Position numbers and translations under genes: made by a program. From Bacillota bacterium (lineage in GTDB: Bacteria > Bacillota > Dethiobacteria > Dethiobacterales > Dethiobacteraceae): a stretch of DNA of 43,050 nucleotides. Within the stretch, counting starts at the first letter, position 1; each line of letters begins with the position of its first letter. The notes under the pieces are model-generated. The model was given only the letters and a program-made list of their open reading frames with translations, made no database searches and was not told the origin of the DNA. Of this stretch, positions 9,149 to 41,819 are shown piece by piece. The stretch is taken from the NCBI GenBank assembly GCA_018725565.1, contig QLUR01000023.1:1-43050 (forward strand), in the 5' to 3' direction.

Positions 9149-9501
9149 TTGCGCTTTCCTTTCAGGAAGTCTCTCCGTCTTTCCAGCCGCTTCTTTCTGG
9201 CGCTCAGTACAGCAAAGTCCTTGAACAATGCTGCGCTACCCGGTTTCTCGGCCAACTCCCATAGGTCGTTTAGGCTTTCACCGCCCATCCCTGCCATATT
9301 GCTCCACAATACGAACAAATGGGCGTGCATCTCGTCTAGGACGCACCAGCGGTTACGCTCTCGTTCTCTGCCTTCGGGGGAATTGAGCCAATCGTTATCG
9401 TCGTCGTCATCGTCAGTGAGCAAAGCAGAAAGAATGTTGTCTATACGCTCACGCTGGGCGTCTAGTTGTCGATAACGAGTTTCGTCGTCAAGGGCTGTGC
9501 T
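9145..9501 (-). CDS. Tail assembly chaperone, frameshift (GT-type) extension
   Basis: Frame open from the slippery site at 9501 to the stop at 9145 (118 codons). It has no good start of its own; a TTG at 9423 lacks a ribosome site. After a -1 slip the reading continues STALDDETRYRQLD..., then an acidic run (TDDDDDDNDW), and ends with a basic tail (SARKKRLERRRDFLKGKRK). Joined to the first 151 residues of the upstream gene this yields a 269-aa long form. Known siphovirus pattern: the short form (G) and long form (GT) coat the tape measure during assembly. Position immediately before the tape-measure block agrees. Confidence 0.75.
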   Translation of the reverse strand, partial: STALDDETRYRQLDAQRERIDNILSALLTDDDDDDNDWLNSPEGRERERNRWCVLDEMHAHLFVLWSNMAGMGGESLNDLWELAEKPGSAALFKDFAVLSARKKRLERRRDFLKGKRK

Positions 9502-9953
9502 AAAAAACGTTCAGGAACCGTGGGAAGCACCCCCGCATTTAGTTCCCGTGTAGCCGCCAACCACTCATCAAACAAACCTGTTGGAAGTAAATCAGCCATT
9601 CCATCCAGCGACACCCAATCAGCGGGTAGACTTTTACGCTGCCATTTTGCATCTAGCGTTCCATTACGATAATTGCATTGATAGACAATACCATTACTTG
9701 TACGTTCTCTATCAATGACGCATAACATTTCTGCACGAAAAAAGCAAAGATTTCGTAATGCTATAAATTCAGCCTCGTCCGTCTCATCTTCCAATTGCAG
9801 ACCTGTACGCTGAACGTACCAGTCTCCGGCCTCCCTTGCCAGCGCAAAGTAGTGGGCTCTATCTACATAAGATGCAGAACGGACAGTTATCCTATAAGTT
9901 TCATTTTTTCCTGAAACAGAACCGGCAACGGTATGTTCGATTTGTATTTTCAC
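9462..9953 (-). CDS. Tail assembly chaperone, short (G-type) form
   Basis: 163-aa protein encoded after the tail tube gene, where lambda-like phages keep gpG. GTG start at 9953 preceded by GGAGAG. Thirteen codons before its stop lies the heptamer T TTT TTA in the correct frame for -1 slipping. Family members are highly divergent, so the call rests on gene order, the slippery heptamer and the open downstream frame rather than on residues. It would bind the tape measure and tube protein in the cytoplasm and is not expected in mature virions. Confidence 0.7.
   Translation of the reverse strand: MKIQIEHTVAGSVSGKNETYRITVRSASYVDRAHYFALAREAGDWYVQRTGLQLEDETDEAEFIALRNLCFFRAEMLCVIDRERTSNGIVYQCNYRNGTLDAKWQRKSLPADWVSLDGMADLLPTGLFDEWLAATRELNAGVLPTVPERFLAQPLTTKLVIDN
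9501..9507 (-). promoter_or_regulatory. -1 ribosomal frameshift site, T TTT TTA
   Basis: On the minus strand the codons run CGT TTT TTA GCA, giving the canonical X XXY YYZ heptamer U UUU UUA in zero frame. The -1 frame is open for the next 118 codons to the start of the next gene. The same heptamer is used by HIV-1 gag-pol. A downstream stimulatory structure was not established by eye. Confidence 0.75.
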
Positions 9954-9997
9954 GAGTCTCTCCGCAGAAAAAAACGGTTTTTAGTCGTTGGACAAAA

Positions 9998-10125
9998 GTT
10001 GTGATACATTGAATAGGCGTTAGAGCAGCAGAGTTAGCCATTCTTGCTCGTGGATTAGCGAGCATCAGCGCCGGTTCGCCGGATGTAGCTGTAGAAGCCC
10101 ACGTCTTTAGTCGTGGGCGTAATCA
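9998..10125 (+). ncRNA. TnpB omega-RNA-like / IS605 right-end-like element, no tnpB
   Basis: The gap between the chaperone and tube genes holds a structured plus-strand element, antisense to the late operon. It has hairpins at GCTCGTGGATTAGCGAGC, at CGCCGGTTCGCCGG-like bases, and a terminal hairpin CCCACG TCTTTAGT CGTGGG directly after GTAGAAGC, a word common before the last hairpin of TnpB right ends. Its first 45 bases align with the minus-strand element at 18056-18011, sharing AGGCGTT, CAGCAGAGTT and flanks. The 3' end abuts the tube gene stop codon. No transposase is attached. It may be a relic insertion or a free guide RNA. Confidence 0.5.
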
Positions 10126-11448
10126 CGTTCCGGCGTAACTCGGAATTGCATTAACAAGCGTGACGGTTATAGGTGCTGCCGACAAAGCATCAGTAACACG
10201 ATACGCACAGTCATACAGTACATTCCCCCCAGCGGTCAAATCGAACGGCTGCATATCCCATTGTGCTACCGGAATACTGAATGTCATCCTGTATGGGACG
10301 GCAGCGGCAGTCGAGATGTTACCCGCTGAGGCAAAATTCCATGTGAAGCCCGTGCTGGCAGGATAAGGAATTGTGACGGCAGTTCCGCTGGCACTCCCCC
10401 AATACCATTCCTTCCATGCGTTCTCACTGAAATCAAGCCCCGCAATAGTGCCTGTGATAGTTTTACCAGTAGGACTAAGAGTTGCACGATTCATTGTATG
10501 CAACTCTTGCTCATCTTCTGCAAGCGGGTTATCGAAGCTGATTGTATGAGAGCGTGGCGTTCCGATAGTCGCTGGCGTGAAGTCAGTGGCAGATAACGTG
10601 AATGCCCCATTCGCTTGACTAAGTACAGCATCAATCTCAGCCGTGAACGTCTCCGTTCCGGCGGCATTTGCAAGAACCAAGCCCAAACCTGTGCCAGCTA
10701 CCACTATCCCGGTGTTATCCGCCGTGAAAGTTAGCTGACTCAGGCGCACATCCCGTACAATACGGTCGAAGCCACCGGTCTCCCCAATAAAATCGTAGGC
10801 AGTTAGCCAGCCTTCACTATCAGCGGAAGGCAGGGTAAAGACGTGGGTGTAGTAAAAACCGCTGAATACGGCTGTGCTTGAGCCACCTGTCAGTCCGGCG
10901 GCATTGGCGGTAAGAGTAGAGGCCGTAAGTCCAATGCTATTTGTAGCCGTCGTCAAAATTGTAATGGTATAGGGTCCACCCGCCGACCCCGTAACGATAG
11001 CAGAAGAAACATTGGAAAGCGCCGCTAAGTTCGTTTGTAAGGTAGCAGCCGTAGCGTTGAAAGCGGTAGCTGCTGTAGTTTGAGTTGTTCCAGAAATGAC
11101 GGATACGGTGAATGTGCCGCCAGTGGCGCTGATAGTCAGAATGACAACAGTAGACGTGCTGACCGTAAAGCCAAGCCCAAGTAGTTCTAATCCCACCATA
11201 CTCGGATAGAGACGGTGACGGAAAGACACGTCAATGATGCTGCCCGCCCGGATGGGCGTAGACTGCAATGCGGTGGAACGAGAATGTACGCCCGTGTGTT
11301 CGCCACTGGTGTCTATCATCTCGTAACGAAGGTTCAGCCCGTGTTGTTGCACACGGCCACGAATATAAGGGGGGGTAATGCCTGCCGCCGCTGTGCCCCT
11401 TACATTCTGTCGGGCAAGTCCGAATCTGGTTGTTTGATGTAACGCCAT
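10123..11448 (-). CDS. Major tail tube protein with inserted Ig-like domain
   Basis: 441-aa protein. Both ends look like a siphovirus tube protein (N-terminal RFGLARQNVRGTA; C-terminal beta strands with IAGLDFSENAWKEWYWGS). Between about residues 100 and 195 sits an Ig-like module (GGTFTVSVISGTTQTTAATAF, then GSAGGPYTITIL, ending NAAGLTGGSS), similar to the one in the large tail-tip protein. Such inserts usually protrude from the tube surface. Located just upstream of the tail chaperone, as expected for the tube gene, with AGGAG before ATG. The tube polymerises around the tape measure. Confidence 0.75.
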   Translation of the reverse strand: MALHQTTRFGLARQNVRGTAAAGITPPYIRGRVQQHGLNLRYEMIDTSGEHTGVHSRSTALQSTPIRAGSIIDVSFRHRLYPSMVGLELLGLGFTVSTSTVVILTISATGGTFTVSVISGTTQTTAATAFNATAATLQTNLAALSNVSSAIVTGSAGGPYTITILTTATNSIGLTASTLTANAAGLTGGSSTAVFSGFYYTHVFTLPSADSEGWLTAYDFIGETGGFDRIVRDVRLSQLTFTADNTGIVVAGTGLGLVLANAAGTETFTAEIDAVLSQANGAFTLSATDFTPATIGTPRSHTISFDNPLAEDEQELHTMNRATLSPTGKTITGTIAGLDFSENAWKEWYWGSASGTAVTIPYPASTGFTWNFASAGNISTAAAVPYRMTFSIPVAQWDMQPFDLTAGGNVLYDCAYRVTDALSAAPITVTLVNAIPSYAGT

Positions 11449-11458
11449 AGTAATACTC

Positions 11459-11944
11459 CTATGTCTCTGTTCTCACAATCAGGCGTAATGCGCCCACGCC
11501 CTTATAATTGCCGCCTACATTGCCGCCCAATACTTCAACTCCCCAATCCAGTATTTCTGTCTCGTAGACTGTTTCAACAAAGGTACTGGTAAGACCGCCT
11601 AGCGCAAAACGAGTCAACACAAAGTTACGTAGTCGTTGCACAAGTATCTGAGCGTTGGCTTTGGCAGTGGCGTATGTCATCTGTTCGTTATCTACACAAG
11701 CCAGCCAATAAGGATACTCGCTGTAAATATGGACTTTCCCGTCCCCGTGCGGCCCTTGACTGATAGGCCGTACAATGTTAGAGAGAATAGCAACGGCTGG
11801 CGGGTTATATTTTTCTGGCTTAAATGAATCAGATAGTAGCACTTCCTTGACAAGTAACGTGCTGTACAGCCCTCCGCTACCCATATCGGCTAGGATGTTG
11901 GTCTTGAAATAATTGTCTATATTAACCCACAACACCGCACTCAT
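11459..11944 (-). CDS. Tail terminator / neck protein (putative)
   Basis: 161-aa protein between the connector and the tail tube genes, the usual place of a tail terminator (lambda gpU-like). Mixed alpha/beta, with no motif recognisable by eye: LRNFVLTRFALGG in the middle and a C-terminal strand VGALRLIVRTET. ATG overlaps the preceding stop (ATGA). Role inferred from order. Confidence 0.5.
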   Translation of the reverse strand: MSAVLWVNIDNYFKTNILADMGSGGLYSTLLVKEVLLSDSFKPEKYNPPAVAILSNIVRPISQGPHGDGKVHIYSEYPYWLACVDNEQMTYATAKANAQILVQRLRNFVLTRFALGGLTSTFVETVYETEILDWGVEVLGGNVGGNYKGVGALRLIVRTET

Positions 11945-12384
11945 ACATTGTCCTCAGTGTTGAGATATTGGTGCAATGTGCGTGTAAAAGCAGGTTTTAC
12001 CCGGTCGTCGTCGCCCTCGTATGTCTCTTTGTTGGTTATGTTAATACCGCCTGCCCAGGACGAGACAAGATAAGACGCTGCGCTGTCAGGTGAAATACCG
12101 TCTACGCTGGCCGCCTGTTCTTCTAGCCAAGCCGCCAGTTGGACGGCCATACTTGCCGCTGCATCAACGGCTACCTTCGCTTCCGCCCAACGGCCCATTC
12201 TGGCCGTGTCAAACGCTAGTGTTCGTAGCGCCCACGCCGCCGCTCGCCGTAAATTATTCGACGGACTACCGTCAATGAAAACCTGTAACTCCCCATCAGA
12301 AAAAGCGGCATTGCTGACGTTGGTATCGTTAGCATAGAGGCGTACTTTGCCTATATTGGTCGAAAGAACGTAAGTGATTGTCAT
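11941..12384 (-). CDS. Head-tail connector (gp6-like adaptor)
   Basis: 147-aa, helical protein. The N-terminal part TNIGKVRLYANDTNVSNAAFSDGELQVFID followed by NNLRRAAAWALRTLA (given here in two pieces: FSDGELQVFID and RRAAAWALRTLA) matches the general pattern of HK97 gp6-like adaptor proteins that bind under the portal. Start and stop overlap both neighbours through ATGA, so the three connector genes are translationally coupled. Confidence 0.65.
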   Translation of the reverse strand: MTITYVLSTNIGKVRLYANDTNVSNAAFSDGELQVFIDGSPSNNLRRAAAWALRTLAFDTARMGRWAEAKVAVDAAASMAVQLAAWLEEQAASVDGISPDSAASYLVSSWAGGINITNKETYEGDDDRVKPAFTRTLHQYLNTEDNV

Positions 12385-12770
12385 TTGCCAAACACAGAAG
12401 AAATGGTCAGGGTTGTACTGCCTGCGTATGTACCGGTTGTCGTATACTTGACCCGAAACTTGTCACCCAATATACCGCTTCTGCTAGTATTGGCCGTCAA
12501 AGTGCCCTCAGTGGGTGTGTACTGTGTAGTAACGGCGGTGATATCCAGGCTATAGACCCGTGTAGCCGTAGCGGTTGTGAAGGTAAATTCGGCAATATCT
12601 ATCCAGGTTGTACCATCGTCCAAACTGGTTTGTACCCAAGCCTTTGCATTTGTGCCGCCAGACCCATAGACAAATGCGGCTTGCAAAGCCAGATAGCGAA
12701 CATTACGAACTGAGTATGTTCCGCTGACTGCTCCTGTCACCGCTGTTGTAATCGTAGTCGTTGCAAGCAT
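12381..12770 (-). CDS. Small virion protein, unknown (connector region)
   Basis: 129 aa from the ATG at 12770, preferred because AGGAAA precedes it by a normal gap; an in-frame extension upstream has no ribosome site. Thr-rich, beta-sandwich-like (SLDDGTTWIDIAEFTF, RVYSLDITAVTTQY, DKFRVKYTTTGTY). Patterns of this kind occur in minor head or collar proteins. No function can be given. Confidence 0.6.
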   Translation of the reverse strand: MLATTTITTAVTGAVSGTYSVRNVRYLALQAAFVYGSGGTNAKAWVQTSLDDGTTWIDIAEFTFTTATATRVYSLDITAVTTQYTPTEGTLTANTSRSGILGDKFRVKYTTTGTYAGSTTLTISSVFGK

Positions 12771-12777
12771 AGCTTTC

Positions 12778-13275
12778 CTATTCCGCTTCTCGCTGCGCCC
12801 GTGTAAACAATGCCCGTATGCGACTCCTACCAATGGTAGGCACATCTTGACCTATTTTGATAATACCCGCTTGCAAAATGTCTTCCCATGTAGAATATCC
12901 GGCAACCTGCAAGGCAATGGTATTATTCTTACCAATACCAACCACGTCAGAAAAGTTGACTTTTGGTTCATTCGTCAACGTTATTGGCGTGTTCGCATTT
13001 ACCACCGTTCCCGTCAAATAGGGAGAAACGTAACTCGTAACCGGTTCGTTGGCCTTTGTTTCTCGTTCGTCGTCATCGGCTATTCGTGCCGAAGCCTCGC
13101 CCGCTTTCTCGACTTTCGCCAAGAAAATAGACAAGGCTTTAGCTGCACGCCAAAACTCAATTTCGGAGTCACTGTGTGGCAAATAGAAATGGGGGTCATC
13201 CCATCCGTGCCTCTTGGCAATAGCCGCTGCCGACTTTTCGCACGCTTGAATAGCCGTTAACTGTCGTTCGTTCAT
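12778..13275 (-). CDS. Head protein with C-terminal helix-hairpin-helix motif
   Basis: 165-aa protein encoded between head-fibre and connector genes. N-terminal half is helical (WRAAKALSIFLAKVEKAGEASARIADDDE). C-terminal 50 residues carry a helix-hairpin-helix pair: VVGIGKNNTIALQVAGYSTW, then IGQDVPTIGRSRIRALF. Such HhH modules bind DNA backbone nonspecifically; a head-completion or DNA end-holding role is possible but only inferred. Confidence 0.55.
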   Translation of the reverse strand: MNERQLTAIQACEKSAAAIAKRHGWDDPHFYLPHSDSEIEFWRAAKALSIFLAKVEKAGEASARIADDDERETKANEPVTSYVSPYLTGTVVNANTPITLTNEPKVNFSDVVGIGKNNTIALQVAGYSTWEDILQAGIIKIGQDVPTIGRSRIRALFTRAQREAE

Positions 13276-13287
13276 TTTCGGCCTTCC

Positions 13288-14112
13288 TTAGACGGTAGCA
13301 GAGAATGGCGTTACCTTAGTGCCGCTGGCTGTAGTCATACCGTGTACAGCCCAGACGTTGAGTCTTATATCTTGAAACTCTACCCAATCGCCAATCGTAA
13401 AGCCGCCTGTCGTTGTACCGTTCAGCGTTACCGTATCGCTTGTTCCTGTCGTCAACCAGACCAGCGGAGCCATGCCGGTGTCCGCCGATTGCAGGATGCT
13501 GCCCTGCACAATGTCCGAAACGTTAGCAACCCTCATAATATAGGAGTTGGACGTGTTGACGATACCAACAATGAAGCGGTAAATAGCGCCGCCGCCTGTT
13601 GATGCTGGCAGAGTAGACACAAAGCCAGTAAGCAAGTTCAGAGTGTTGAGTCTATTTTCATGCGTAGCCTCTGTAACGGTGGTAGTCGTCACCAAAGTAT
13701 TGACACGGGTTGATACTCTCGCCGCCCGATTTAGTTCGGCAGCGGTCGCCACCACCTGCGTTTCAGAGCCAGAAGCGCCAATATGTAGAGCCGTAATTCT
13801 GCTGATACCGGTGTTGACGTTAGCATCGGCCACCACTGCTTTACCCGCCGCTTGTGTGCCGTTGGTAATAGCATCAATTTTCACCAGGTCTGCTTCGCTG
13901 AGTATCGTTGTACCGGTAACGATATTTCCAGAAACAGTCATATGGCGAAATATCCCAATATCTCTATTGGCGTCCACTACCACCGCTTTACTGGCCTCCA
14001 CTATGCCAGCGGTGATGCCATCTATCATTGCCAGTTCTGTGCCTGTCAGGTCAGTGCCACCGACACTGATAGCGCCAACTAGCACTTGGCCCTTACTGAG
14101 TGTATTCGGCAT
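13288..14112 (-). CDS. Head fibre / decoration protein with repeats
   Basis: 274-aa protein with degenerate repeats of about 50 residues: TELAMIDGITAGIVEASKAVVVDANRDIG-like words recur as ADLVKIDAITNGTQAAGKAVVADANVN and ETQVVATAAELNRAARV (quoted in short parts: IDGITAG, KAVVVDAN, IDAITNG, KAVVADAN). This repeat is common in phage head fibres and decoration proteins. The C-terminal third is a beta domain. ATG follows GGAGG and overlaps the upstream gene by 20 bases. Encoded just after the capsid genes, suggesting a position on the head. Confidence 0.6.
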   Translation of the reverse strand: MPNTLSKGQVLVGAISVGGTDLTGTELAMIDGITAGIVEASKAVVVDANRDIGIFRHMTVSGNIVTGTTILSEADLVKIDAITNGTQAAGKAVVADANVNTGISRITALHIGASGSETQVVATAAELNRAARVSTRVNTLVTTTTVTEATHENRLNTLNLLTGFVSTLPASTGGGAIYRFIVGIVNTSNSYIMRVANVSDIVQGSILQSADTGMAPLVWLTTGTSDTVTLNGTTTGGFTIGDWVEFQDIRLNVWAVHGMTTASGTKVTPFSATV

Positions 14113-14422
14113 TGGTTCCCTCCAGTTCTTTCAATCGTTTCTCAAGAATGCTTCTTGCTACTTGCCGTTCTTCTGTTTTCAGAGCCGTATGCAGCAGACA
14201 AGCATCCTTGACTTCGCTAATTAACAAACGCAATTCTCGAATCGAAGATGCCAGCAGGAGGGAGACAGAAGGTTGATAATCTGACCCTCCTACTAATGGC
14301 AGAATGTATCGTTGTTCCGTCAATTGCTGCGCCCGTCTTGCCGTCATCGTATCGCCCGGCAAGACTGTACCTATGTCTAGTCCAGAAAAAGGTCGCACTA
14401 CCTGGTAGCGTGTTTCATTCAT
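14093..14422 (-). CDS. Small head-region protein, unknown
   Basis: 109 aa; N-terminal half FSGLDIGTVLPGDTMTARRAQQL looks like a small SH3-like beta unit seen in short phage proteins near the capsid gene; C-terminal half is an amphipathic helix (ARSILEKRLKELEG). It was presumably adjacent to the capsid gene before the EDxHD gene entered. Function unknown. Confidence 0.55.
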   Translation of the reverse strand: MNETRYQVVRPFSGLDIGTVLPGDTMTARRAQQLTEQRYILPLVGGSDYQPSVSLLLASSIRELRLLISEVKDACLLHTALKTEERQVARSILEKRLKELEGTNAEYTQ

Positions 14423-14441
14423 AAGTTCTTTCTTTCCGTAG

Positions 14442-14470
14442 TTGCGTAAATCAACTACTTATGTTACAAT
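14442..14470 (+). promoter_or_regulatory. Promoter of the EDxHD endonuclease gene
   Basis: TTGCGT (14442-14447), 17-base spacer, TACAAT (14465-14470) on the plus strand, inside the minus-strand late operon. It gives the inserted gene its own transcription. Confidence 0.55.
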
Positions 14471-14512
14471 GTATAGTATCGAACCGTGTTCGCCATTGAA
14501 AGAAAACATACC

Positions 14513-15232
14513 GTGATTCCTACCAAAGAATGTCCCGTTTGCGGCAAAACCTTTGAAAAACCATCGTCCTGTAGTATGCGAGATTGGAATACTGGTCGCA
14601 AATTCTGTTCAAAGAAATGTGCGTACAGTGATTTCAAAGGAAGGTCATCACCTCGCAAAGGGACAAAATCAGGGTTGCCTAGCAAAATGCAACATTATCC
14701 TTGTCGTATCTGTGGAAAACCCACAAAGTATCACGGCATTCTCAAAGAGTCTCAATACAATATGTATCGTTGTGAAAGACCAAAGTGTATTGAGGCTTCT
14801 CGTAAGTTGAAGAATGATAACATCAGGGCAAAAGCTATTGAGATGTACGCCAATGGCGAAAGAGTTGCGCCAAAGACGGCATGGCAAAATGTCAAAGAAA
14901 TCAGCACTGAGGAAGAACTTATTTCTCCGTGGCTTGAATCTTTGGGTTTTGTCACTCAACACAAACTTTTGACTGGTGTTCATACCAACAAACTTCCGAG
15001 AATGTTTTGGCTTGACTTTGCTTTGCCAGAACACAAGCTGTACATTGAGATTGATGGCAGTGTTCATCGGCTTCGCAAGGAACGAGATGCTAGACGTGAT
15101 TCTATGATGGATGGACTAGGCTGGATTGGATTACGCATCCAAGCCAAATCCGTCCGTTCTGATATAGATTCTGTTAAGCAACAAATCCTCACTTGGCTAT
15201 ATGAATATATCTCGTTCGCTATAAGCCAATAA
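14513..15232 (+). CDS. Free-standing endonuclease, EDxHD / Vsr-DUF559-like
   Basis: About 239 aa from GTG at 14513; a GTG at 14486 would add nine residues but leaves almost no leader. The N-terminus has CPVCGKTF and FCSKKCAY, a second pair CRICG and later a Cys, i.e. zinc fingers. The C-terminal 90 residues form a Vsr-like nuclease: SPWLESLGF, FWLDFALPEHKLYIEIDG, then H six residues after the Glu and RRDSMMDGLGW. Glu-x-Asp-Gly-x-x-His fits the EDxHD homing nucleases. It lies opposite to the late genes, its stop directly touching the capsid gene's stop, the usual way such genes invade phage structural operons. Confidence 0.7.
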   Translation: MIPTKECPVCGKTFEKPSSCSMRDWNTGRKFCSKKCAYSDFKGRSSPRKGTKSGLPSKMQHYPCRICGKPTKYHGILKESQYNMYRCERPKCIEASRKLKNDNIRAKAIEMYANGERVAPKTAWQNVKEISTEEELISPWLESLGFVTQHKLLTGVHTNKLPRMFWLDFALPEHKLYIEIDGSVHRLRKERDARRDSMMDGLGWIGLRIQAKSVRSDIDSVKQQILTWLYEYISFAISQ

Positions 15233-16198
15233 TCAACTTACAGCCAAATTAAAAAAGTAGCCTAAATCTGAACCAACTACTCTGTTGTCAAAGGCAATTT
15301 CACCTTCAATACGGTCGGCTTTTTCCTTTTCCATGTAGAAACGGGTCATCCCGATTTCAGCACCGGCAATACCGCCGGCCACACCACGCCAGGAAAAGGT
15401 ATAGCCAGCCGAAGGGGTTAGCAGACCAGGATTGGGCGCAACGTGGCAGAGAAGGGCGTGATTGCCGTGCGTCATTGCCATCGCCGGCGTTTCCCCTTCT
15501 ATGTTGGTCGCCCTGACTCCCATTGCCACATGGACATTCGCCAGGTCGAAAAGGCGAGCCATCAGACTAGCGCCAGGACTAACCGACTCGGTATTATTGG
15601 TGTACTTTACCCGGTCGATGATGTCAGGATGATTCTTCAAGTGACGGAATGTGTTATACCCCAACACCATGGTATTGGGCAGATACCCCGTTGTCGCCAG
15701 AATCATCGCTTTGCCCGCTTCAATGTCGCTGATAGGGTCAGACGTGGCGTAGGCGCTCCACTTGGCAGTAGGCGTGATATCTGTTGCCCACACGGAAGTT
15801 TTGAAGAAGTCAGCTACCCATTGAATTTCTCGGCGTAAGAGAAGACGCTGCGTCACAAATTCAGTAGCATCCCTGTCCAGATTGATACCGGCGTCAGCAT
15901 TGTTGCGAGCTTGATAGCCAATGTCTTTGTGTATCGCCCACAAATTACATGAATAGGTAGATGTACTCAGGCCATAGCCGCTGCCAGCCGATTCTTGCCC
16001 ATCAGCCCGAATAACCGCCTCATCCAGAAACCAGGCATTCTTTGGATAGGTATAAAACCTGTCAGTCTGTTTTTGCACAGGGACAATGGGGAACACCCTA
16101 CCCGCAATGAAATGGGCCTGATTTTGAATATAAGCAATAGAGATATTAGTCAGGGGTACATCAACTGCATGTACCTCCTGCGCTGTTGGTTGAGCCAT
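15233..16198 (-). CDS. Major capsid protein
   Basis: 321-aa protein with the features of a phage MCP: N-terminal arm with IAGRVFPIVPVQKQTDRFYTYPK, long spine helix region (DATEFVTQRLLLRREIQW), TMVLGYNTFRHLKNHPDIIDRVKY, and C-terminal axial domain ending FFNLAVS. The order protease-decoration-MCP confirms it. ATG follows AAAGGAA. Forms the icosahedral shell in HK97 fold (inferred). Immediately downstream the operon is interrupted by the plus-strand endonuclease gene. Confidence 0.85.
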   Translation of the reverse strand: MAQPTAQEVHAVDVPLTNISIAYIQNQAHFIAGRVFPIVPVQKQTDRFYTYPKNAWFLDEAVIRADGQESAGSGYGLSTSTYSCNLWAIHKDIGYQARNNADAGINLDRDATEFVTQRLLLRREIQWVADFFKTSVWATDITPTAKWSAYATSDPISDIEAGKAMILATTGYLPNTMVLGYNTFRHLKNHPDIIDRVKYTNNTESVSPGASLMARLFDLANVHVAMGVRATNIEGETPAMAMTHGNHALLCHVAPNPGLLTPSAGYTFSWRGVAGGIAGAEIGMTRFYMEKEKADRIEGEIAFDNRVVGSDLGYFFNLAVS

Positions 16199-16221
16199 TG
16201 AAGTTTCCTTTCTGCTGAAAA

Positions 16222-16262
16222 GTTCGTAAATCCCACGTGTTTTAACCGTGGGAGTACGTCAA
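16222..16262 (+). repeat. Solo IS605-type right-end hairpin
   Basis: Plus-strand bases read ATCCCACG, loop TGTTTTAA, CCGTGGGAGTACGTCAA. The minus-strand right end of the complete IS element near 24.3 kb reads ATCCCACCGGCTTTAGCCGTGGGAGTATGTCAA, the same layout with base-paired changes. It fills the gap between decoration and capsid genes, antisense to them. No transposase gene is attached. Confidence 0.6.
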
Positions 16263-16265
16263 AAG

Positions 16266-16667
16266 CTAGTTACTAGTGACGGCACGCGGCGGATTGATAC
16301 AGTTGACGACAACAGTGGCAATACCCCCTACCGCTGTAGTAGCCACAATGACCTGTCCAGCAATGTATTCCGTCACATCTGTTCCTATAATTTTGCGGTC
16401 TGCTTGTCCATCGATAGACGTGCCGATAAACCAACCGGCAGTCAGAGCTTCGTCACTGGAGACTTTCGTTACACCCAAAGTGCAGACTTCGGCCCCAGCG
16501 CCGCTTCGCGGATTATTTTGCAGCACACCAATCGGAATATCGGTAGGCGCAGTGCACGTGGTCACAGTAGCTGCACCGGACAATCTGACGAAGTAGAATT
16601 GTCTGTTTGACAAGTCAGTGGAAGCAGTCAGTCCTGGAATTATGATTTGCGGTCCTTCCCAAGCCAT
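16266..16667 (-). CDS. Capsid decoration (cement) protein, putative
   Basis: 133-aa beta-rich protein between protease and capsid genes. FYFVRLSGAATVTTCTAPTD and PIGVLQNNPRSGAGAEVCTLGVTKV match the general form of small head decoration proteins that carry one beta-tulip domain (DUF2190-like). Good ribosome site GGGAGA. Would bind capsid hexamers on the surface. Confidence 0.65.
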   Translation of the reverse strand: MAWEGPQIIIPGLTASTDLSNRQFYFVRLSGAATVTTCTAPTDIPIGVLQNNPRSGAGAEVCTLGVTKVSSDEALTAGWFIGTSIDGQADRKIIGTDVTEYIAGQVIVATTAVGGIATVVVNCINPPRAVTSN

Positions 16668-16671
16668 AGTG

Positions 16672-17877
16672 TCATTCTCCCTTCACGTGCCGGTTGTAGA
16701 GACCGGGATTCTGGGTCAGTACTTCGGTGTACGCCTGGGCATAAGAAAGCCCCGTGCGTTCCGCTTGCAACTGACGTGCCTTGACATCCAATTCTTCAGC
16801 AGCCGTGCGCTTTTGGCTCTGGCGACTATGCCCATACTCCTTGAACAGTTCGCTGGTGTGTAGCTGCTCAGCCAACGCCTGCTGTTGCTGGACATACTCA
16901 GCGAACTCCTCGCTCTCCTCACCAAATGTTTCAGCAAAGGAACGCAGGACCTTCAGGTGACTGGCCGTTTCGCCGTACCAACGCTTGTCGCTTTCCACCA
17001 GGTCAGTGAAACGCCGCACTTGGGCTGTCTGTTCCATCTTGGCAATGCGAGCGTTGGAAGCATCCAACGCTTCAGTCAACTTGACACTGCGGGCTTCGCT
17101 TTCTGCACGGGCGGCTTCGGCTGCCGTAAAGCGGTCTTGCAGGTCGACAAAAGCCTGTGTCTGTTCTTCTACCTTCATTTCCAATTCCATATACTTGTCT
17201 CCATTCGTAGTCTTTACCACTGCCGGTAAAGTATCTGTCAAATCTTCAAAACCACGTTCTGTCGCAATCAAGGAACGTAAATAACTTTCCTTGATATAAG
17301 GGCGTGTGGTAATGGCCGCCCCCACTGCTACATCCTTATGTACTTCTTCGGTAAAAGGGTCTATCCACAATGGATAAAATTCAGGAGACATATAGCGAAA
17401 ACGCTTATTGGCAAGCAACTTTATGCCCCGGTCAGTCCATTCAGTCAACGCATCCACAGAACCATTGTCATTGACCCGCATATCAGTTATCCAACCCACT
17501 GCTCCACTGAGTTTGGTTTGGTGTTCAGCGTCAATCGGGATACGAGATTGGTAAATGCCCTGCTTGAAGCCATCTACCAGACGATTTGCTTTTTCCAACG
17601 TAAAGGAAACGTCACCGTACTTCTTATGCTTTAGTTCACCCGGCAAAGGCAGATAGGGTATCCATTGTTCTGGTTCGACAAACTCATGTTCAATAAAAAG
17701 ACGCCAGTTAGCGCCATATTCCTTTTTTTCCATTGCGGCATAGAGAGCCTTCATGTGATTTTCTGCTTCGGCGTGCGTCGTATGACATTTTTCAACACTA
17801 TTGTCACTGTCATTGATAACACAGTGACGAACAGAAGAATCACTATCATTAACTTCCTCGACAATTTTCCAGGGCAT
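16672..17877 (-). CDS. Capsid maturation protease fused to scaffold (Mu I-like)
   Basis: About 401 aa from ATG at 17877 (AGAGGA just upstream; in-frame codons further up lack a site). Residues 1-60 have a duplicated unit around RHCVINDSD and VEKCHTTHAEAENHMKALY. The central domain has IPIDAEHQ, GAVGWITDMRV, LTEWTDRG and RYMSPEFYP, the exact pattern of phage Mu I-like proteases. From about residue 230 on there is a long coiled coil (VEEQTQAFVDLQDRF ... RIAKMEQ), i.e. an internal scaffold. It would guide prohead assembly and be cleaved. First gene after the structured leader, so likely the head of the capsid-tail operon. Confidence 0.8.
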   Translation of the reverse strand: MPWKIVEEVNDSDSSVRHCVINDSDNSVEKCHTTHAEAENHMKALYAAMEKKEYGANWRLFIEHEFVEPEQWIPYLPLPGELKHKKYGDVSFTLEKANRLVDGFKQGIYQSRIPIDAEHQTKLSGAVGWITDMRVNDNGSVDALTEWTDRGIKLLANKRFRYMSPEFYPLWIDPFTEEVHKDVAVGAAITTRPYIKESYLRSLIATERGFEDLTDTLPAVVKTTNGDKYMELEMKVEEQTQAFVDLQDRFTAAEAARAESEARSVKLTEALDASNARIAKMEQTAQVRRFTDLVESDKRWYGETASHLKVLRSFAETFGEESEEFAEYVQQQQALAEQLHTSELFKEYGHSRQSQKRTAAEELDVKARQLQAERTGLSYAQAYTEVLTQNPGLYNRHVKGE

Positions 17878-17897
17878 GACTTCCTCTTTTTGGATAA

Positions 17898-18056
17898 GTG
17901 ACGATTCCAACGAGTGAACTCGTTAGCTTCTACGGGAGTACCGAAGCACTATCGTCCTAGTGCTTTTTAGAAAAAACGTGTTTATGTTGCACTTGTCTCT
18001 ACGACTTTCAGGAAAGCCAACTCTGCTGTTCCAACGCCTGTTCGTTATACCACAAC
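17898..18056 (-). ncRNA. Structured leader / omega-RNA-like element before capsid operon
   Basis: On the minus strand this runs from GTTGTGGTATAAC through AGGCGTT and CAGCAGAGTT (shared with 9998-10040) to a hairpin AGCACTA/TAGTGCT, the words TCCCGTAGAAGC, a hairpin AACGAG TTCA CTCGTT and GAATCGTCAC. The last 72 bases (17969-17898) recur at 35246-35317 with one mismatch. It ends 21 bases before the protease start, so it is part of the late 5' leader. TGGTATAAC near its start resembles an extended -10. On the opposite strand AGCACTA/TAGTGCT followed by TTTTTA would act as a terminator. Confidence 0.5.
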
Positions 18057-22108: not shown

Positions 22109-23383
22109 ATGGAAAAATTCATGTTAAAAGCCCCGTTCCCGTGGTTCGGAGGAAAATCAAGAGTTGCTAGTCAGGTGTGGCAAGCCCTGGGCGATTGCCA
22201 GCATTATTGCGAACCCTTTTTTGGATCAGGTGCTGTGTTGTTAGGACGCCCCCATTGGCATAAAAATAACACAGAAACAATCAATGATGCCGATTCGTAT
22301 GTCTGCAATTTCTGGCGTGCGCTATCCGCCGACCCCGACACCGTTGCCTATTATGCTGACCAACCAGTAAACGAAACAGACCTTATCGCTATTCATTACT
22401 GGTTGATTACAGAGGGAAAACAAAAAATGATAGCGGGTTTGGAGAGCGACCCCGACTATTTTGATGCACAAATAGCCGGTAGATGGGTATATGGTTTATG
22501 CGCTTGGATAGGCAGCGGGTGGTGTAGCGGCAATGGCCCCTGGCAAAACGTCAATGGTAAACTGGAAAAGGTGTCCAATGCTACCGGCCTAAACGCCCAA
22601 CCACACCATCCAGACAATGCCGGACAGGGTGTCAACCGTCAGCGCCCACACCTGGGCAACGCCGGACAGGGTGTTAGCCGTAAACTCCCCCATCTGGGCG
22701 ACGCCGGACAGGGTATTAACCGTCAACTCCCACACCTCAGCAACGCCGGACAGGGTGTTAACCGTAAACTCCCACACCTGGGCGACGCCGGAAAGGGTAT
22801 TAACCGTAAACGCCCACACCTCGGCGACGCCGGAAAGGGTGTTAACCGCACCCTCTACTCTCAAGCGTCCCTACAAAATAACAATAGCGACAGCGACTCT
22901 TTTCTACCCGTCAATTCCGCCCTCTACTCTTACATGCGCCAACTCGCTGCACGGCTCCGTAACGTCCGTGTTTGCAATGGCGACTGGTCTCGTGTCGTCA
23001 CTACCGGCGCATTGACCTATGGTAGCACTGTCGGTTTATTGCTCGACCCGCCCTACTCTTTCGACGCCAACCGTGATATGTCTCTCTACACCCACGACTC
23101 CGGCACTGTTGCTCACGATGTTCGTGAATGGGCCATCGCCAATGGCGATAACCCTAGATACCACATTGTGCTTTGCGGCTATTCCAATGAACACGCCAAT
23201 AAAATGCCCGATAGCTGGCGAGTACATTCTTATTCCGCCGGTAAAGCATACGGTACTAGCAACGGGGGGGGACGCAATACCGAAAACCGTCATCATGAGA
23301 CGCTTTGGTTCTCCCCACATTGTATGAAACCCACACCTGACCTTTTCTCTTTGGCAGAGGAAGAAGTAGAAGTAGACATCTGA
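22109..23383 (+). CDS. DNA adenine methyltransferase (D12 class) with 14-residue repeats
   Basis: 424 aa. N-terminal PFPWFGGKSR (motif X) and EPFFGSGAV (motif I), and LLLDPPYSF (motif IV, DPPY at about 313-316) identify a Dam-family N6-adenine methylase. Between them, residues 164-247 form six tandem 14-residue units of the type KLPHLGDAGQGINR, placed where the target recognition region is expected. Both ATGs at 22109 and 22121 are possible starts. It would modify phage DNA, possibly against host restriction. The gene is 10 bases upstream of a PP-loop gene cluster and on the same transcript. Specificity not predictable. Confidence 0.85.
   Translation: MEKFMLKAPFPWFGGKSRVASQVWQALGDCQHYCEPFFGSGAVLLGRPHWHKNNTETINDADSYVCNFWRALSADPDTVAYYADQPVNETDLIAIHYWLITEGKQKMIAGLESDPDYFDAQIAGRWVYGLCAWIGSGWCSGNGPWQNVNGKLEKVSNATGLNAQPHHPDNAGQGVNRQRPHLGNAGQGVSRKLPHLGDAGQGINRQLPHLSNAGQGVNRKLPHLGDAGKGINRKRPHLGDAGKGVNRTLYSQASLQNNNSDSDSFLPVNSALYSYMRQLAARLRNVRVCNGDWSRVVTTGALTYGSTVGLLLDPPYSFDANRDMSLYTHDSGTVAHDVREWAIANGDNPRYHIVLCGYSNEHANKMPDSWRVHSYSAGKAYGTSNGGGRNTENRHHETLWFSPHCMKPTPDLFSLAEEEVEVDI
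22598..22849 (+). repeat. Six 42-bp tandem repeats in the methylase gene
   Basis: Exact 42-nt period, six units, encoding xxPHLGxAGxGxNR. Adjacent units differ at a few positions, mainly Q/K and D/N/S. In-frame copy number change would lengthen or shorten the protein without breaking it. Confidence 0.92.
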
Positions 23384-24215: not shown

Positions 24216-24335
24216 ATGACAAACAGAAAGGAGGTAGGGGGTCGGTATCACTTGCTCATTGGCGATTGTTTAGAAGTTATGAAAACACTTCCAGACAATC
24301 ACTTTGAAGCTGTGTTGACATACTCCCACGGCTAA
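24216..24335 (+). pseudogene. DNA methyltransferase fragment cut by the IS
   Basis: ATG at 24216 with AAGGGGGGA before it; the product reads MTNRKEVGGRYHLLIGDCLE then VMKTLPDNHFEAVLT, matching the start of N4/N6-class methyltransferases up to the point where (D/S)PPY would follow. It then runs into the IS right end and stops at TAA 24333. The catalytic half is absent here and was not found convincingly beyond the other IS end, so it is a broken gene. Confidence 0.7.
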
Positions 24336-24350
24336 AGCCGGTGGGATTCT
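24313..24350 (-). ncRNA. omega-RNA 3' end / IS right end
   Basis: In this IS class the TnpB guide RNA covers the tnpB 3' end and the right-end hairpin; sequence past the element is the guide. Here the scaffold would end ...GGGAGTATGTCAA and the guide would begin near CACAGCTTCAAAG (minus strand into the broken methylase). Confidence 0.5.
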
Positions 24351-24354
24351 GGGG

Positions 24355-25494
24355 TCAAACAGCGAATGCCGGGATACCCGGTCTTACAGCGCCTAACCCA
24401 AGAGAAGATGCCCCTTCTCTTTCGATATTTACCGAAGCGTTGAAGTCTCTGTCGTGAATGACACCGCAGCCGGTGCAGACCCAACGGCGGTCTGAGAGAG
24501 TCAACGAATGATTAACTTGTCCACAGTCAGAACAAGTCTTGCTGGAAGGAAAGAAGCGGTCTATCAGATGAACAATTTTGCCCTTCACCAAAGCAACGTA
24601 CTGAAGGATGTTGACGAAAGCGGCAAAACCCAAATCGGACACTTTGCGTCCCCATCGTCGCTGCATAGCCTTGATGTTCAGGTCTTCCAGCACAATCACG
24701 TCAAACTTGTCAGTTAGATCGTGGGCCAGCTTGAAAAACCAATCACGGCGCAAGTTGGCAATCCGTTCATGGGCTTTGGCAAGGACAAGTTTGGCTTTCT
24801 TCCGATTGTGACTGCCCTTCTGTTTTCGAGACAATTCTCGATTCAGACGACGTATCTCGTTCAGCGCAATTTTGTAGAAAAGCGGGCTTTCAACAGTTGT
24901 ACCGTCGCTCAGGGTAAGAAATGTTTTCAGCCCAAAGTCCACGCCCACGATATTACTCGGTGTGACCGGATCGGGATACATTCCCCCTGCTACTGCGAAA
25001 CACAACCAGATATGGCCCAACTCATCTCGCTTGATGGTGACTGTTTTGATTGTTCCGTCTATTTCACGGCTCTTGCTGAATTTATACGTTTGTCCCTGAA
25101 TGCGGATACGATTGCCGCCCAGACGTTTCCAGCCTGCTTGTTTCAGCGTGAAAGATTTGTACAGCTTCACTTTCTTGAAGGATGGTCGTCCGCTATGTTG
25201 CGTTGTTTTTCCTGCTTTGTATTTGAAAAATCGCTGATAGGCTGCATCGAGTCGTTCAATGATACCTTGCATAGCTTGACTGCCTACCAGTTGCCAATGC
25301 GAATACTTTTGACGATTGCGAAGTTTGGCAATATGTTTCATCAAATCGTACTTGCTGATGTATTTTCCAGTGAGCTTGTAGTACCGGCGTTGCAAAGCAA
25401 CACAGTGGTTCCAAATTAGACCAGATACATTGATAGCCTGATGCAGATGCTTATTTTTATCGTTGTCGTACAATCGGTATTTGTAGGTGATCAC
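24355..25494 (-). CDS. tnpB: TnpB, RNA-guided RuvC nuclease
   Basis: 379 aa. RuvC motifs complete: GVDFGLKTFLTL with Asp186, VIVLEDLNIKAM with Glu270, HDRDFNASVNI with Asp350. Zinc ribbon CSDCG (321/324) and CTGCG (340/343). N-terminal YKYRLYDNDKNK and bridging helix region are present. GTG start shares a base with the tnpA stop (TAGTG). Cuts DNA next to a transposon-adjacent motif using omega-RNA and so favours retention of the IS. All catalytic residues intact, so probably active. Confidence 0.92.
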   Translation of the reverse strand: MITYKYRLYDNDKNKHLHQAINVSGLIWNHCVALQRRYYKLTGKYISKYDLMKHIAKLRNRQKYSHWQLVGSQAMQGIIERLDAAYQRFFKYKAGKTTQHSGRPSFKKVKLYKSFTLKQAGWKRLGGNRIRIQGQTYKFSKSREIDGTIKTVTIKRDELGHIWLCFAVAGGMYPDPVTPSNIVGVDFGLKTFLTLSDGTTVESPLFYKIALNEIRRLNRELSRKQKGSHNRKKAKLVLAKAHERIANLRRDWFFKLAHDLTDKFDVIVLEDLNIKAMQRRWGRKVSDLGFAAFVNILQYVALVKGKIVHLIDRFFPSSKTCSDCGQVNHSLTLSDRRWVCTGCGVIHDRDFNASVNIEREGASSLGLGAVRPGIPAFAV

Positions 25495-25895
25495 TATCTG
25501 CTCTTTTGGTCATCAATGTATTTTTTGACGGTTTCTTGTGAAATGTGGCCGACTGATTCAATATAATAGCTACGTGTCCAAAGGGTAGGAAGCCTGGATT
25601 TGAGTTTAGGGAATTCATTGCGAAGTATTCTTGATGAATATCCCTTTAACTGTCCTACGATGAAGTGCGGGGCATGAATGGGGGGTGACTTCACAAATAG
25701 ATGGACATGCTCAGGCATAACTTCCATATTTTCGATGGTCAGACCCATACCGTTGGCTTTTTCACGCAGAAGTTCTTTCAATCGTGCATCAATTCCAGAG
25801 ACAAGAACACGCCGCCGATATTTGACGCACCAAATGATGTGATAACCAAGATTATGTATTGCCGTGTTGCTTGCTGTCCAACGATTGGTTTCCAT
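25494..25895 (-). CDS. tnpA: TnpA, Y1 HUH transposase (IS200/IS605)
   Basis: 133 aa, normal family length. Contains HNLGYHIIWCVKYRRRV, the HUH motif HVH in MPEHVHLFVKS (63-65), and the catalytic tyrosine in VKKYIDDQ (Tyr126). Single-strand transposase acting on hairpin ends. Start ATG lies only six bases after the -10, so the mRNA may be leaderless. Confidence 0.93.
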   Translation of the reverse strand: METNRWTASNTAIHNLGYHIIWCVKYRRRVLVSGIDARLKELLREKANGMGLTIENMEVMPEHVHLFVKSPPIHAPHFIVGQLKGYSSRILRNEFPKLKSRLPTLWTRSYYIESVGHISQETVKKYIDDQKSR

Positions 25896-26059: not shown

Positions 26060-26190
26060 TGAAACTTTCTAAAAAAAGAAAAATAGGCAGAGACCCCCTG
26101 CAGCCAACCGCAGCAAGCCTACCCATTCACCTTTGCAGGCTTCCAGTCTGGGCCGGGCGCACCAGGCGGACGGTAGGTTGCAGGGGGCAA
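26060..26190 (-). terminator. Probable terminator after the Ala-rich operon
   Basis: Minus strand CCCCCTGCA ... TGCAGGGGG arms with an inner AAGCCT/AGGCTT pair, followed by a T-rich tail (ATTTTTCTTTTTTTAG). The large loop makes this a moderate call. Otherwise 25990-26190 holds no gene I can support. Confidence 0.4.
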
Positions 26191-26194
26191 GCGG

Positions 26195-26490
26195 CCGCAT
26201 AGGCGGCGGTGGCGACGGCGTCCTAGCCGCAGGGGAAAGCGAACCCGGCAGGTCAGGGATACTGCCGGGTCGGGGCGGTATTCGGAACTCAGTCAGTTGG
26301 TCGGAACGGCGGCTTCGGCGGCGTGGGCGGTGACGGCGGCGGCAACCGCAGCATAGGCGGCGACGGCGTCCTGGCCGCAGGGAAAAGCGAACCCGGCAGG
26401 TCAGGGACACTGCCGGGTCGGGGTCGGGGTCGGTATGTAGAACTCAGTCAGTTGGTCGGAACGGCGGCGGCATAGGCGTGGGCGGCTTCG
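26195..26490 (-). repeat. Tandem duplication of the Ala-rich gene 3' end
   Basis: Two imperfect copies of about 150 bp (from 26195 and from 26346) each hold the same order: an Ala-codon stretch, a GAACTCAGTCAGTTGGTC segment encoding VPTN and stop in reverse, and a CCCGGCAG...CTGCCGGG hairpin. Only the copy nearest the gene is connected to an ORF; the distal copy is a decayed partial gene. Confidence 0.7.
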
Positions 26491-26816
26491 GCGGCATAGT
26501 CGGCGGCGGCTTCGGCGGCTTCGGCGGCTTTGACGGCATGGGCGGTGGCGGCGGCGACGGCGGCGGCCGCATAGGCGGCTTCTTCGGCGCTGTCGGCGGC
26601 TTCGGCGGTGGCGACGGCATAGTCGATATAGGCCGCAAAGGCCGCATAGGCCGCGACGGCGTCGGCGGCATAGTCGCCGGCATAGTCGCCGGCGGCATAG
26701 TCGGCGGCTTCGGCGGCGGCGGCAACCGCCGCATAACGGGCATACTTGGCGGTGGTGGCGGCGGCGGCGGCGGCGGTGACGGCGGCGGCGGCGGCGGCTT
26801 TGGTCGTCATTTTCAT
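26448..26816 (-). CDS. Alanine-rich low-complexity protein 3
   Basis: 122 aa, more than half Ala with regularly spaced Tyr, Asp, Glu and Thr (AAYAAFAAYIDYAVATAEAA). Starts MKMTTKAAAAAAV at an ATG overlapping the previous stop, with AAGGAG 9 bases upstream, so it is genuinely translatable. N-terminus nearly identical to the first gene of the set, i.e. a paralogue. Expected to be one long helix. Followed by a CCCGGCAG hairpin with TTCGCTTTTC, likely terminator. The plus-strand Gly-rich frame is only its mirror. Function unknown. Confidence 0.6.
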   Translation of the reverse strand: MKMTTKAAAAAAVTAAAAAATTAKYARYAAVAAAAEAADYAAGDYAGDYAADAVAAYAAFAAYIDYAVATAEAADSAEEAAYAAAAVAAATAHAVKAAEAAEAAADYAAEAAHAYAAAVPTN

Positions 26817-27007
26817 TGTCGGTTCTCCTTGTGGTTGGCAACGTTTTCGTAGGCTGCATTATGCCTATAGCCCGCTTCATCATAAGCGAGGCGGGCTGCA
26901 TCATAAGCAGCCGATACTTGCATATATTCGTCATAAGCAGCCGATACAGCATCACTGGCTACATAAAATTCGGCTTCGGCTATCGCTAATTCTTGCTGAG
27001 TTGTCAT
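26813..27007 (-). CDS. Alanine-rich protein 2
   Basis: 64 aa: MTTQQELAIAEAEFYVASDA, continuing AAYDEYMQVSAAYDAARLAYDEAGY. AAGGGGACCACC precedes the ATG; both ends overlap neighbours through ATGA. Tyr/Asp/Ala 7-residue spacing suggests an amphipathic helix or coiled coil. Less low-complexity than its neighbours, so it may show what the family ancestor looked like. Confidence 0.6.
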   Translation of the reverse strand: MTTQQELAIAEAEFYVASDAVSAAYDEYMQVSAAYDAARLAYDEAGYRHNAAYENVANHKENRQ

Positions 27008-27228
27008 TGGTGGTCCCCTTGAAAATGGGGGGCGTCGGCATAGTCGGCGGCGGCGGTGGCATAGGCCGCATAAGCGGCGTGGGCGGCTTCGGCGGCTTCG
27101 TCGTCGTCGTCGGCATGGGCGGCGGCGACGGCATAAGCGGCGTGGGCGGCCGCATAGGCCGCATAAGCGGCGTGGGCGGCTTCGTCGGCGGTGACGGCGG
27201 CGGCGGCGGCTTTGGTCGTCATTTTCAT
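27004..27228 (-). CDS. Alanine-rich protein 1
   Basis: 74 aa from ATG 27228 behind AGGAGACCACC. MKMTTKAAAAAVTADEAAHA then AAYAAYAAAHAAYAV, an acidic patch ADDDDEAAEA, and a C-terminus YADAPHFQGDHQ. Shares N-terminus and ribosome-site sequence with protein 3, so the operon grew by duplication. A related gene sits on the plus strand at 32881. Confidence 0.6.
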   Translation of the reverse strand: MKMTTKAAAAAVTADEAAHAAYAAYAAAHAAYAVAAAHADDDDEAAEAAHAAYAAYATAAADYADAPHFQGDHQ

Positions 27229-27444
27229 TGGTGGTCTCCTGGGGTGTACGCCTTTGCGCTGAATAAAAACACTGACACCAGTAAACCACACTTTCCGGCG
27301 CTTATATCTACGTAGTTCTACTAAATTATCAAAGTACATATTTCCACGTTTCACCAAGTTGTTGCTCGACGTTGTAAGGCGAAAACGATATAGTATTTCC
27401 TTGTAATGCGGTATTTTCGCTGCCTTTTGACATTTTTACATACG

Positions 27445-34710: not shown

Positions 34711-34724
34711 AAGGAAGGCAGCTA

Positions 34725-35044: not shown

Positions 35045-35248
35045 ATGGCAACCAAGTTCACCGGTCTCAAATACGACTCAGATTGTGGCTATTACGCCGT
35101 CCGTAACGGACGTATTGTCTGTCCCATTGACGGTATCAGCGGGATGAAAGCTGACGCTGAACGTGCGTTGGCCTGGGCTTCAATAGACTGGCACTCTGTT
35201 GAGCTGCTGCCAGAAGCAGAACGGTGGGCCAACGAACCAGGTTATTAA
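35045..35248 (+). CDS. Unknown 67-aa protein
   Basis: ATG 35045 with AGGAGAAAAA upstream. FTGLKYDSDCGYYAVRNGRI, VCPIDGISGMKADAERALAW, VELLPEAERWANEPGY. Its stop overlaps the 72-bp element that follows. Confidence 0.55.
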   Translation: MATKFTGLKYDSDCGYYAVRNGRIVCPIDGISGMKADAERALAWASIDWHSVELLPEAERWANEPGY

Positions 35249-35317
35249 AAAGCACTAGGACAATAGTGCTTCGGTACTCCCGTAGAAGCTAACGAGTTCA
35301 CTCGTTGGAATCGTCAC
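35246..35317 (+). ncRNA. 72-bp element, inverted copy of 17898-17969
   Basis: Identical to the minus strand at 17969-17898 except one base in the first loop. Contains AGCACTA/TAGTGCT, GTAGAAGC, AACGAG/CTCGTT hairpins and ends GAATCGTCAC. Lacks the upstream 5' block of the other copy. The opposite strand would be a terminator (TTTTTA). Confidence 0.65.
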
Positions 35318-35384
35318 CCGGCCTATTTGAACATTGTATTTTAGCAGCCAATCGGAGGCATTGTATCCGGCACAGGAGAAAGTT

Positions 35385-41787: not shown

Positions 41788-41819
41788 CGTTACCGTCAAG
41801 CAATTGCTTGACGGTAACG
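41788..41819. repeat. 32-bp perfect palindrome
   Basis: CGTTACCGTCAAGCAA followed by its exact complement; 20 bases after one gene and just before the next. No T tract. Could be a dimer operator or transcription end. Confidence 0.75.

Follow-up and report, generated by a model that had tools for sequence, protein, structure and literature searches.

What are short, protein-less elements doing among the late genes of a phage, and could they serve as guide RNAs for a TnpB nuclease encoded elsewhere? This question is raised by contig QLUR01000023.1 of a Dethiobacteraceae (Bacillota) assembly (GCA_018725565.1), of which positions 1 to 43,050 were analysed (the window; as a contig, C29). Two similar elements lie there, E1 between tail-region genes and E2 in front of the head maturation protease gene. 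Together with a third copy, E3, we read them as protein-less IS200/IS605 derivatives of the tnpB-only kind that retain a TnpB omega-RNA core and may use the adjacent insertion site as a guide. Inclusive of guide action, a probability of roughly 0.55 is given to this reading.

Anatomy of E1 and E2

E1 (9965-10126, plus strand, 162 bp) and E2 (18089-17898, minus strand, 192 bp), whose left cut is uncertain by a few bases, have the same layout: a hairpin-bearing left end is followed by a short common block, then by a folded 3' core and the right end. Their parts are listed below; C42 is an 18.7-kb contig of the same assembly that carries a complete tnpB, and R1 is the covariance model described in the next section.

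9965..10007, plus strand: E1 left end with hairpin (AACGG..CGTTGG), matching the left ends of complete TnpB elements
10008..10038, plus strand: E1 spacer with the block shared with E2 (AGGCGTTrGArCAGCAGAGTTrGC), from ungapped similarity to E2
10039..10126, plus strand: E1 omega-RNA 3' core and right end, ending GTAATCAC; R1 55.6 bits, E 3.1e-12 over 10034-10126
10127..10146, plus strand: presumptive 20-nt guide of E1, from its position after the right end, as in ISDra2 (PMC8612924)
18048..18089, minus strand: E2 left end with hairpin, from alignment to the C42 tnpB left end
18016..18047, minus strand: E2 spacer with the shared block, from ungapped similarity to E1
17970..18015, minus strand: extra spacer of E2, mostly common to the solo copy on C42
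17898..17969, minus strand: E2 omega-RNA 3' core and right end, ending TCGTCAC; R1 55.5 bits, E 3.4e-12
17878..17897, minus strand: presumptive 20-nt guide of E2, doubling as a leader that carries the ribosome-binding-like AGAGGAAG ahead of the protease ATG (17877)

On the 5' side, E1 and E2 share an ungapped stretch of 74 bp from CAGAAAA with 55/74 identical bases (BLAST E 6e-8), and GTAGAAGC with a terminal hairpin was seen in both. A shared 5' block, given as 45 bases, and the common ending were the features by which an earlier, sequence-only reading had recognised the pair. The first 42-43 bases of each element are transposon left ends, which matched TnpB left ends at p<0.05 in 5/6 comparisons. 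For E1, the similarity was significant against C42 (p=0.003) and the related locus L155 (0/1000 shuffles) and not significant against L157 (p=0.184); for E2, the alignment to the C42 tnpB left end covered 42 bases with one mismatch, starting 6 bases before the part listed above. The sequence-only reading had located the elements correctly but placed their starts about 33 bases too far downstream; they begin at a left-end hairpin. It had also counted a 45-base 5' block as part of a TnpB right-end layout; much of that block is the left end, and the rest (AGGCGTT..CAGCAGAGTT) is a spacer that matched tnpB 3' codons in no significant way.

No TnpB frame was found within E1 or E2, or upstream of E1, E2, or E3, and neither E1 nor E2 holds a transposase gene. 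Near-terminal palindromes related to IS200/IS605 at both ends, with no transposase gene between them, are the features of PATEs (palindrome-associated transposable elements), and one of the earlier suggestions, that these are miniature elements, is borne out in this respect. E1 is antisense to both of its neighbours, the tail-region genes 10123-11448 and 9462-9953, and the conserved TCAC of its right end provides the TGA stop codon of the former. E2 occupies the gap from the portal region to the head maturation protease gene and is co-directional with the protease gene; its right end stops 20 nt ahead of the conserved ATGCCCTGG protease start at 17877.

Homology and covariation of the 3' core

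Comparison of the C42 TnpB relatives L155, L156, L157, L159, and L188 indicated that the genes of this family have a common 3' end. It starts with a 7-bp hairpin whose six-base loop mostly begins GG; then come a short hairpin followed by TAGAAGC, and finally the right-end hairpin and a closing TCAC. R1 was built from the 3' ends of six complete TnpB genes, E1 and E2 being left out. Its seed alignment contained 18 pairs with 97.2% of the pair cells standard and 14/18 pairs changing on both sides, and this pairing was reached by 0/500 shuffles. When the window and C42 (61.8 kb) were scanned with R1 with the filters off, the top match was the 3' end of C42 TnpB (E 1.4e-22), and E1, E2, E3, and a solo core on C42 were matched at E 4e-13 to 3.4e-12. 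The E2 core showed no non-standard pair marked in the R1 alignment. Furthermore, the last 88 nt of E1 shared 88.6% identity with the end of a tnpB gene in IMG/VR contig L216, the 400-aa product of which is 54% identical to C42 TnpB.

Because of these R1 matches and the identity to the L216 tnpB end, the 3' halves of E1 and E2 are, as judged from homology and covariation, TnpB omega-RNA cores. The covariance search suggested with the sequence-only reading found similarity to TnpB RNAs far above chance, with the same three covarying hairpins as in complete TnpB genes, and we are highly confident of the anatomy and of this homology. As in TnpB omega-RNAs, the 3' core is conserved, folds, and finishes with the right-end hairpin. 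A presumptive guide position follows the conserved TCAC; none of E1, E2, and E3 is encoded at a tnpB 3' end. No Rfam family reached the gathering threshold in the window, and E-value searches of the E1 and E2 regions gave chance-level hits only; with no Rfam match, the elements were not assigned to IscB omega-RNA or HEARO.

Three R1-type cores (E1, E2, and E3) are thus present in the window, and the two elements first noticed are accompanied by further copies.

35246..35317, plus strand: E3 core and right end, 99% identical to E2 over 72 bp; R1 E 1e-12 over 35244-35317
35318..35337, plus strand: presumptive guide of E3, from its position after the right end
C42:16950-17022, plus strand: C42 solo core; R1 E 4e-13

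E3 starts at the stop codon of a 67-aa open reading frame, and E2 is 95% identical to C42:16909-17022 over 114 bp. Among 99 genomes, R1 matches were found in three, namely the own genome, G004, and G096. Those of the own genome were five, all on C29 or C42; that of G004 was its own TnpB, and that of G096 was weak. Besides the solo copies, the only clear match in the own genome was the complete TnpB of the same family on C42, and the elements accordingly co-occur with a complete TnpB in the assembly.

The candidate TnpB partner

Two TnpB genes were compared as possible partners of the solo cores. The C42 gene (C42:1111-2301) encodes a complete TnpB of 396 aa, which is 82% identical to that of L155 and 53% identical to those of L156 and L157. 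Its open reading frame is intact, and the motifs GIDVG, FEDLN, and DRDVNAA are present and align with the corresponding motifs of a designed TnpB-like nuclease, which was the best match among solved structures; the natural TnpB structures 8h1j and 8bf8 also matched. The other candidate belongs to an insertion sequence (IS) of the window.

24355..25494, minus strand: TnpB of the window IS, of a family other than the E1/E2 type (Pfam OrfB_IS605 and Cas12f1-like_TNB)
25494..25895, minus strand: Y1 transposase TnpA, a candidate mobiliser in trans (Pfam Y1_Tnp, E 1.6e-37)
24315..24432, minus strand: right end and omega-RNA of the window IS, a weak R1 match

The right end of the window IS, an RNA different from that of the solos, gave 22.9 bits (E 0.0017) with R1 when the filters were off (24325-24420) and 32.6 bits under other filter settings. 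Because of this weak score of its own RNA and the 33% identity of its TnpB to C42 TnpB, the TnpB at 24.4 kb, which the sequence-only reading had put forward, is the less likely partner, and a C42-type TnpB probably serves the solos in trans. C42 carries phage replication genes. Since homologues of window genes as well as of C42 genes occur on one relative contig, G385, and C42 resembles the window in composition, C29 and C42 probably, if not provably, belong to one phage.

A third TnpB of the assembly, at 11465-13091 of C42 (also L014), has a Pfam TNB domain and lies behind an open reading frame resembling an IS607 serine recombinase by eye.

Absence from related phages

L020 and L021 (on the same contigs as L239/L249) are syntenic related phages whose tail-region protein is 67% identical to the one here. 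Their tail genes are 13 bp apart versus 170 bp here, and the portal-protease gap is 299 versus 530. R1 matched nothing in L020 and L021 (best E 4.8), nor did it in the surroundings of related capsid genes (80 loci, 1.05 Mb, L020 and L021 among them). Both elements are therefore absent in the two nearest relatives; the empty site is clean for E1 and less so for E2, because the flanks diverge. A search for related loci through portal plus protease returned none. On these comparisons, E1 and E2 are insertions and not conserved genes.

Recurrence in viral contigs

The right-end pattern TAGAAGCC..GGGAGTARTCAC, which does not include hairpins 1 and 2, was searched in IMG/VR contigs. It gave 34 matches in 33 viral loci, with TnpB upstream in 18 and absent in 16. 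After exclusion of L209 and the first L231 copy, which had too little upstream DNA, solos without upstream TnpB accounted for 14/32 evaluable right ends, on 12 contigs. L209 lies in the contig of L155 and is the right end of L155's own TnpB; L233 was counted as TnpB-linked on a weak E value (0.0009) and would be called solo at a stricter cut-off. Two solos with different guides were found on one contig in two cases (L223/L229 and L235/L236), and the covariance model added second copies in L205 and L212 and two in L227 beside a complete TnpB. One of the cores in L227 (7332-7410, minus strand) is a solo core directly upstream of the start of a same-family tnpB, giving the order left end, core, tnpB, core.

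Most solos keep the three-hairpin core with its pairing. Pairing was kept in 96.6% of the cells of a mostly-solo alignment (21 rows, 19 distinct, one TnpB-linked) and in 97.6% of those of the TnpB-linked alignment (16 rows), and 16/18 pairs changed on both sides in the mostly-solo alignment; this comparison outweighs the absolute values, since the alignments were fitted to the model. For hairpin 1, p-values from a crude script were weak in most solos, and the script overlooked the hairpin in several; the covariance alignments were relied on instead. The tnpB 3' homology started within 7 nt 5' of hairpin 1 in 13/22 solos (19 aligned to the profile, 3 not), a count that took in the window and C42 copies as well as related copies but omitted L209, L233, and the first L231 copy. 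Transposition of known elements needs the terminal hairpins and not hairpins 1 and 2. Because dead relics are expected to lose pairing and to show scattered ends, these results favour selection for the core in solos, though a recent origin could also explain them.

Proposed guide action in trans

How such elements might work can be outlined as follows. A Y1 transposase acting in trans, such as that encoded in the window, would move the two-ended solos. Transcription starting at a flanking phage promoter or inside the element would yield a short omega-RNA, the guide of which would be the sequence 3' of the insertion. A same-family TnpB, such as the complete one on C42, would take up this RNA and cut genome copies whose site is element-free, and element-bearing copies would therefore win. 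Transcription, TnpB loading, cutting, and mobility are steps that we infer. Whether the solo cores act in trans as guides appears evenly balanced to us. The wider proposal, that phages carry dispersed, stand-alone TnpB guide RNAs that are programmed by the insertion site, share one TnpB in trans, and cut co-infecting insertion-free relatives, is doubtful at present.

Several results weigh against guide action. The guide comparison suggested earlier gave self matches only in the assembly for both E1 (up to 3 mismatches allowed) and E2, and no element-free allele of the same phage was seen. No sigma-70-like promoter was found in the E1 or E2 region, and solos were not enriched in promoters, with 5/22 in sense and 8/22 in antisense orientation against 5.4 expected; individual good sites in L212, L221, and L223 represented no excess over shuffles or antisense. 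Among the 14 solo IMG/VR loci, another TnpB-like frame was present in the sequence examined only in L234 (E 8e-20); L227 has such a frame beside its extra copies. No left end was recognised for E3 or the C42 solo, so that the two-ended layout of PATEs was not seen in them. An nhmmer nucleotide profile missed the E2-type cores, which the covariance model alone found. Finally, the solo core is about 75-90 nt versus about 150 nt for the ISDra2 reRNA (PMC8612924), and the solo RNA may therefore be too short.

Alternative explanations

The elements may instead be relic ends, that is, deletion derivatives (PATEs) persisting as mobile or dead DNA, in which the core is kept by its adjacency to the right end after recent deletions. 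We consider this a possible, though tentative, explanation. PATEs of the same anatomy have been described as DNA elements (PMC7290912), and deletion to the ends is common in Haloquadratum (PMC3119063). Fragments are also abundant here, for example the lone left end at C42:15685 and a lone hairpin at 16229-16262 of the window, and the lack of promoter enrichment in solos agrees with the relic explanation. Against it, the tnpB homology of more than half of the solos begins within 7 nt of hairpin 1 although transposition of known elements needs the terminal hairpins only, and the pairing of the core has been kept through changes on both sides.

Alternatively, the elements could be domesticated cis-regulators: E2 would give the head protease mRNA a structured leader, and E1 would act on the tail genes as antisense RNA or terminator. 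The short leader with its ribosome-binding-like sequence between E2 and the protease start, and the stop codon provided by E1, fit this idea, but both sites are empty in the two nearest relatives and R1 found nothing in the 80 capsid-related loci, so that this is not a conserved regulator; four copies at unrelated sites argue in the same direction, and the explanation is improbable. A shared promoter block or chance hairpins are very improbable. A TGTGRTA-like sequence, seen by eye before the block in E1 and E2, speaks for a promoter, but no sigma-70-like site was found in either region, and R1 E values of about 3e-12 refute chance for the 3' core.

Comparison with known systems

The best label for E1 and E2 is PATE-like non-autonomous IS200/IS605 elements keeping a TnpB omega-RNA core, a kind that recurs in viral contigs. 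Like E1, PATEs consist of a left-end hairpin, a tnpB 3' remnant, and a right end without genes, and a Halanaerobium PATE-like sequence comes close to E1 in anatomy, joining 28 nt from the left end and the terminal 58 nt of tnpB to the right end (PMC7290912). In the text consulted, PATEs are treated as DNA elements, the word RNA occurring 0 times in that paper, whereas in the present phage covariation shows that an RNA core has been retained, and several copies accompany a complete TnpB. As with the solos, the ISDra2-type omega-RNA, or reRNA, is derived from the right end, and has a subterminal hairpin; its guide comes from beyond the transposon end, where the presumptive guides of the solos also lie (PMC8612924, PMC10278001, and PMC10097598). 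It differs in arising from the tnpB 3' end plus right end and in its greater length, the solos having no tnpB.

TldR also exemplifies phage carriage of a TnpB-type guide system, but it is nuclease-dead and regulates host flagellin (PMC13418256). C42 TnpB, the inferred partner here, keeps all three catalytic motifs, and the guides lie apart from it. TldR guides, in contrast, sit with the TldR protein. Altae-Tran and colleagues reportedly described stand-alone, trans-acting omega-RNAs of IscB in 2021; these too have a guide without an adjacent nuclease gene, but they belong to IscB and not to TnpB. Retention and drive by TnpB have been described (PMC10278001 and PMC11870625). The plasmid TnpB gene drive has the same predicted outcome, guided cutting of insertion-free copies, but depends on an autonomous IS with its own TnpB, and the terms "non-autonomous" and "in trans" occur 0 times in the text of PMC11870625. 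A literature search of partial coverage returned no report of stand-alone TnpB omega-RNAs in phages, from which no absence is claimed.

The shared block and other features

Among the sequences searched, the block common to E1 and E2 was found only in these two elements: its pattern gave 0 matches in viral contigs and 4 in genome contigs, which were judged to be chance. A looser pattern gave at least 120 stretches in viral contigs and matches in 11/299 genomes. Of the looser matches scanned in loci (n=132), none had the sought TnpB motif upstream, and those with a hairpin after GTAGAAGC were chance-like. The idea that the block is a decayed tnpB catalytic motif (RDVNAA codons) was rejected, with shuffle p of 0.15-0.99 in 8 comparisons. 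DNA searches with E1 in phages and with E2 in plasmids found no match.

Fragments and repeats were also observed. The lone left end on C42 (C42:15685-15719, 35 bp) is 100% identical to the E1 left end. Isolated right-end-type hairpins of the window IS type stand in gene gaps at 16229-16262 (plus strand) and 22107-22085 (minus strand); the former lies between the scaffold and capsid genes, where 68 bp separate the reading frames, against about 21 bp in L020. A second solo class occurs at about 11310-11012 (minus strand) of C42, with a left-end-like hairpin and a promoter-like TTGTTT..TACAAT (by eye), followed by a 115-bp stretch that is 87% identical to the window IS 3' end and has a long identical core; R1 gave E 0.2 at C42:11029-11124. 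Tandem repeats with a unit of about 7 bp are common to the window (34514-34722, 36552-36746, and 42281-42374) and C42 (778-858 and 17344-17540). The window further contains a direct repeat with an 84-bp period inside an open reading frame with a D12 methyltransferase domain (22606-22848), diverged direct repeats in a cluster of small open reading frames (26183-27357), which also resemble C42 58-302, and a perfect 32-bp palindrome (41788-41819).

Implications

Should the solo cores prove to be real guides, a single TnpB could serve many sites, uncoupling the nuclease from its guide, which would resemble the step from TnpB to CRISPR-Cas12, and phages would gain a guided weapon against their relatives. 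Catalogues of omega-RNAs anchored on TnpB would then miss a large share, given the 14/32 evaluable viral right ends of this type without upstream TnpB. If, furthermore, the dispersed-guide proposal held, the guides in late-gene gaps would form a scattered array for homing and marker exclusion.

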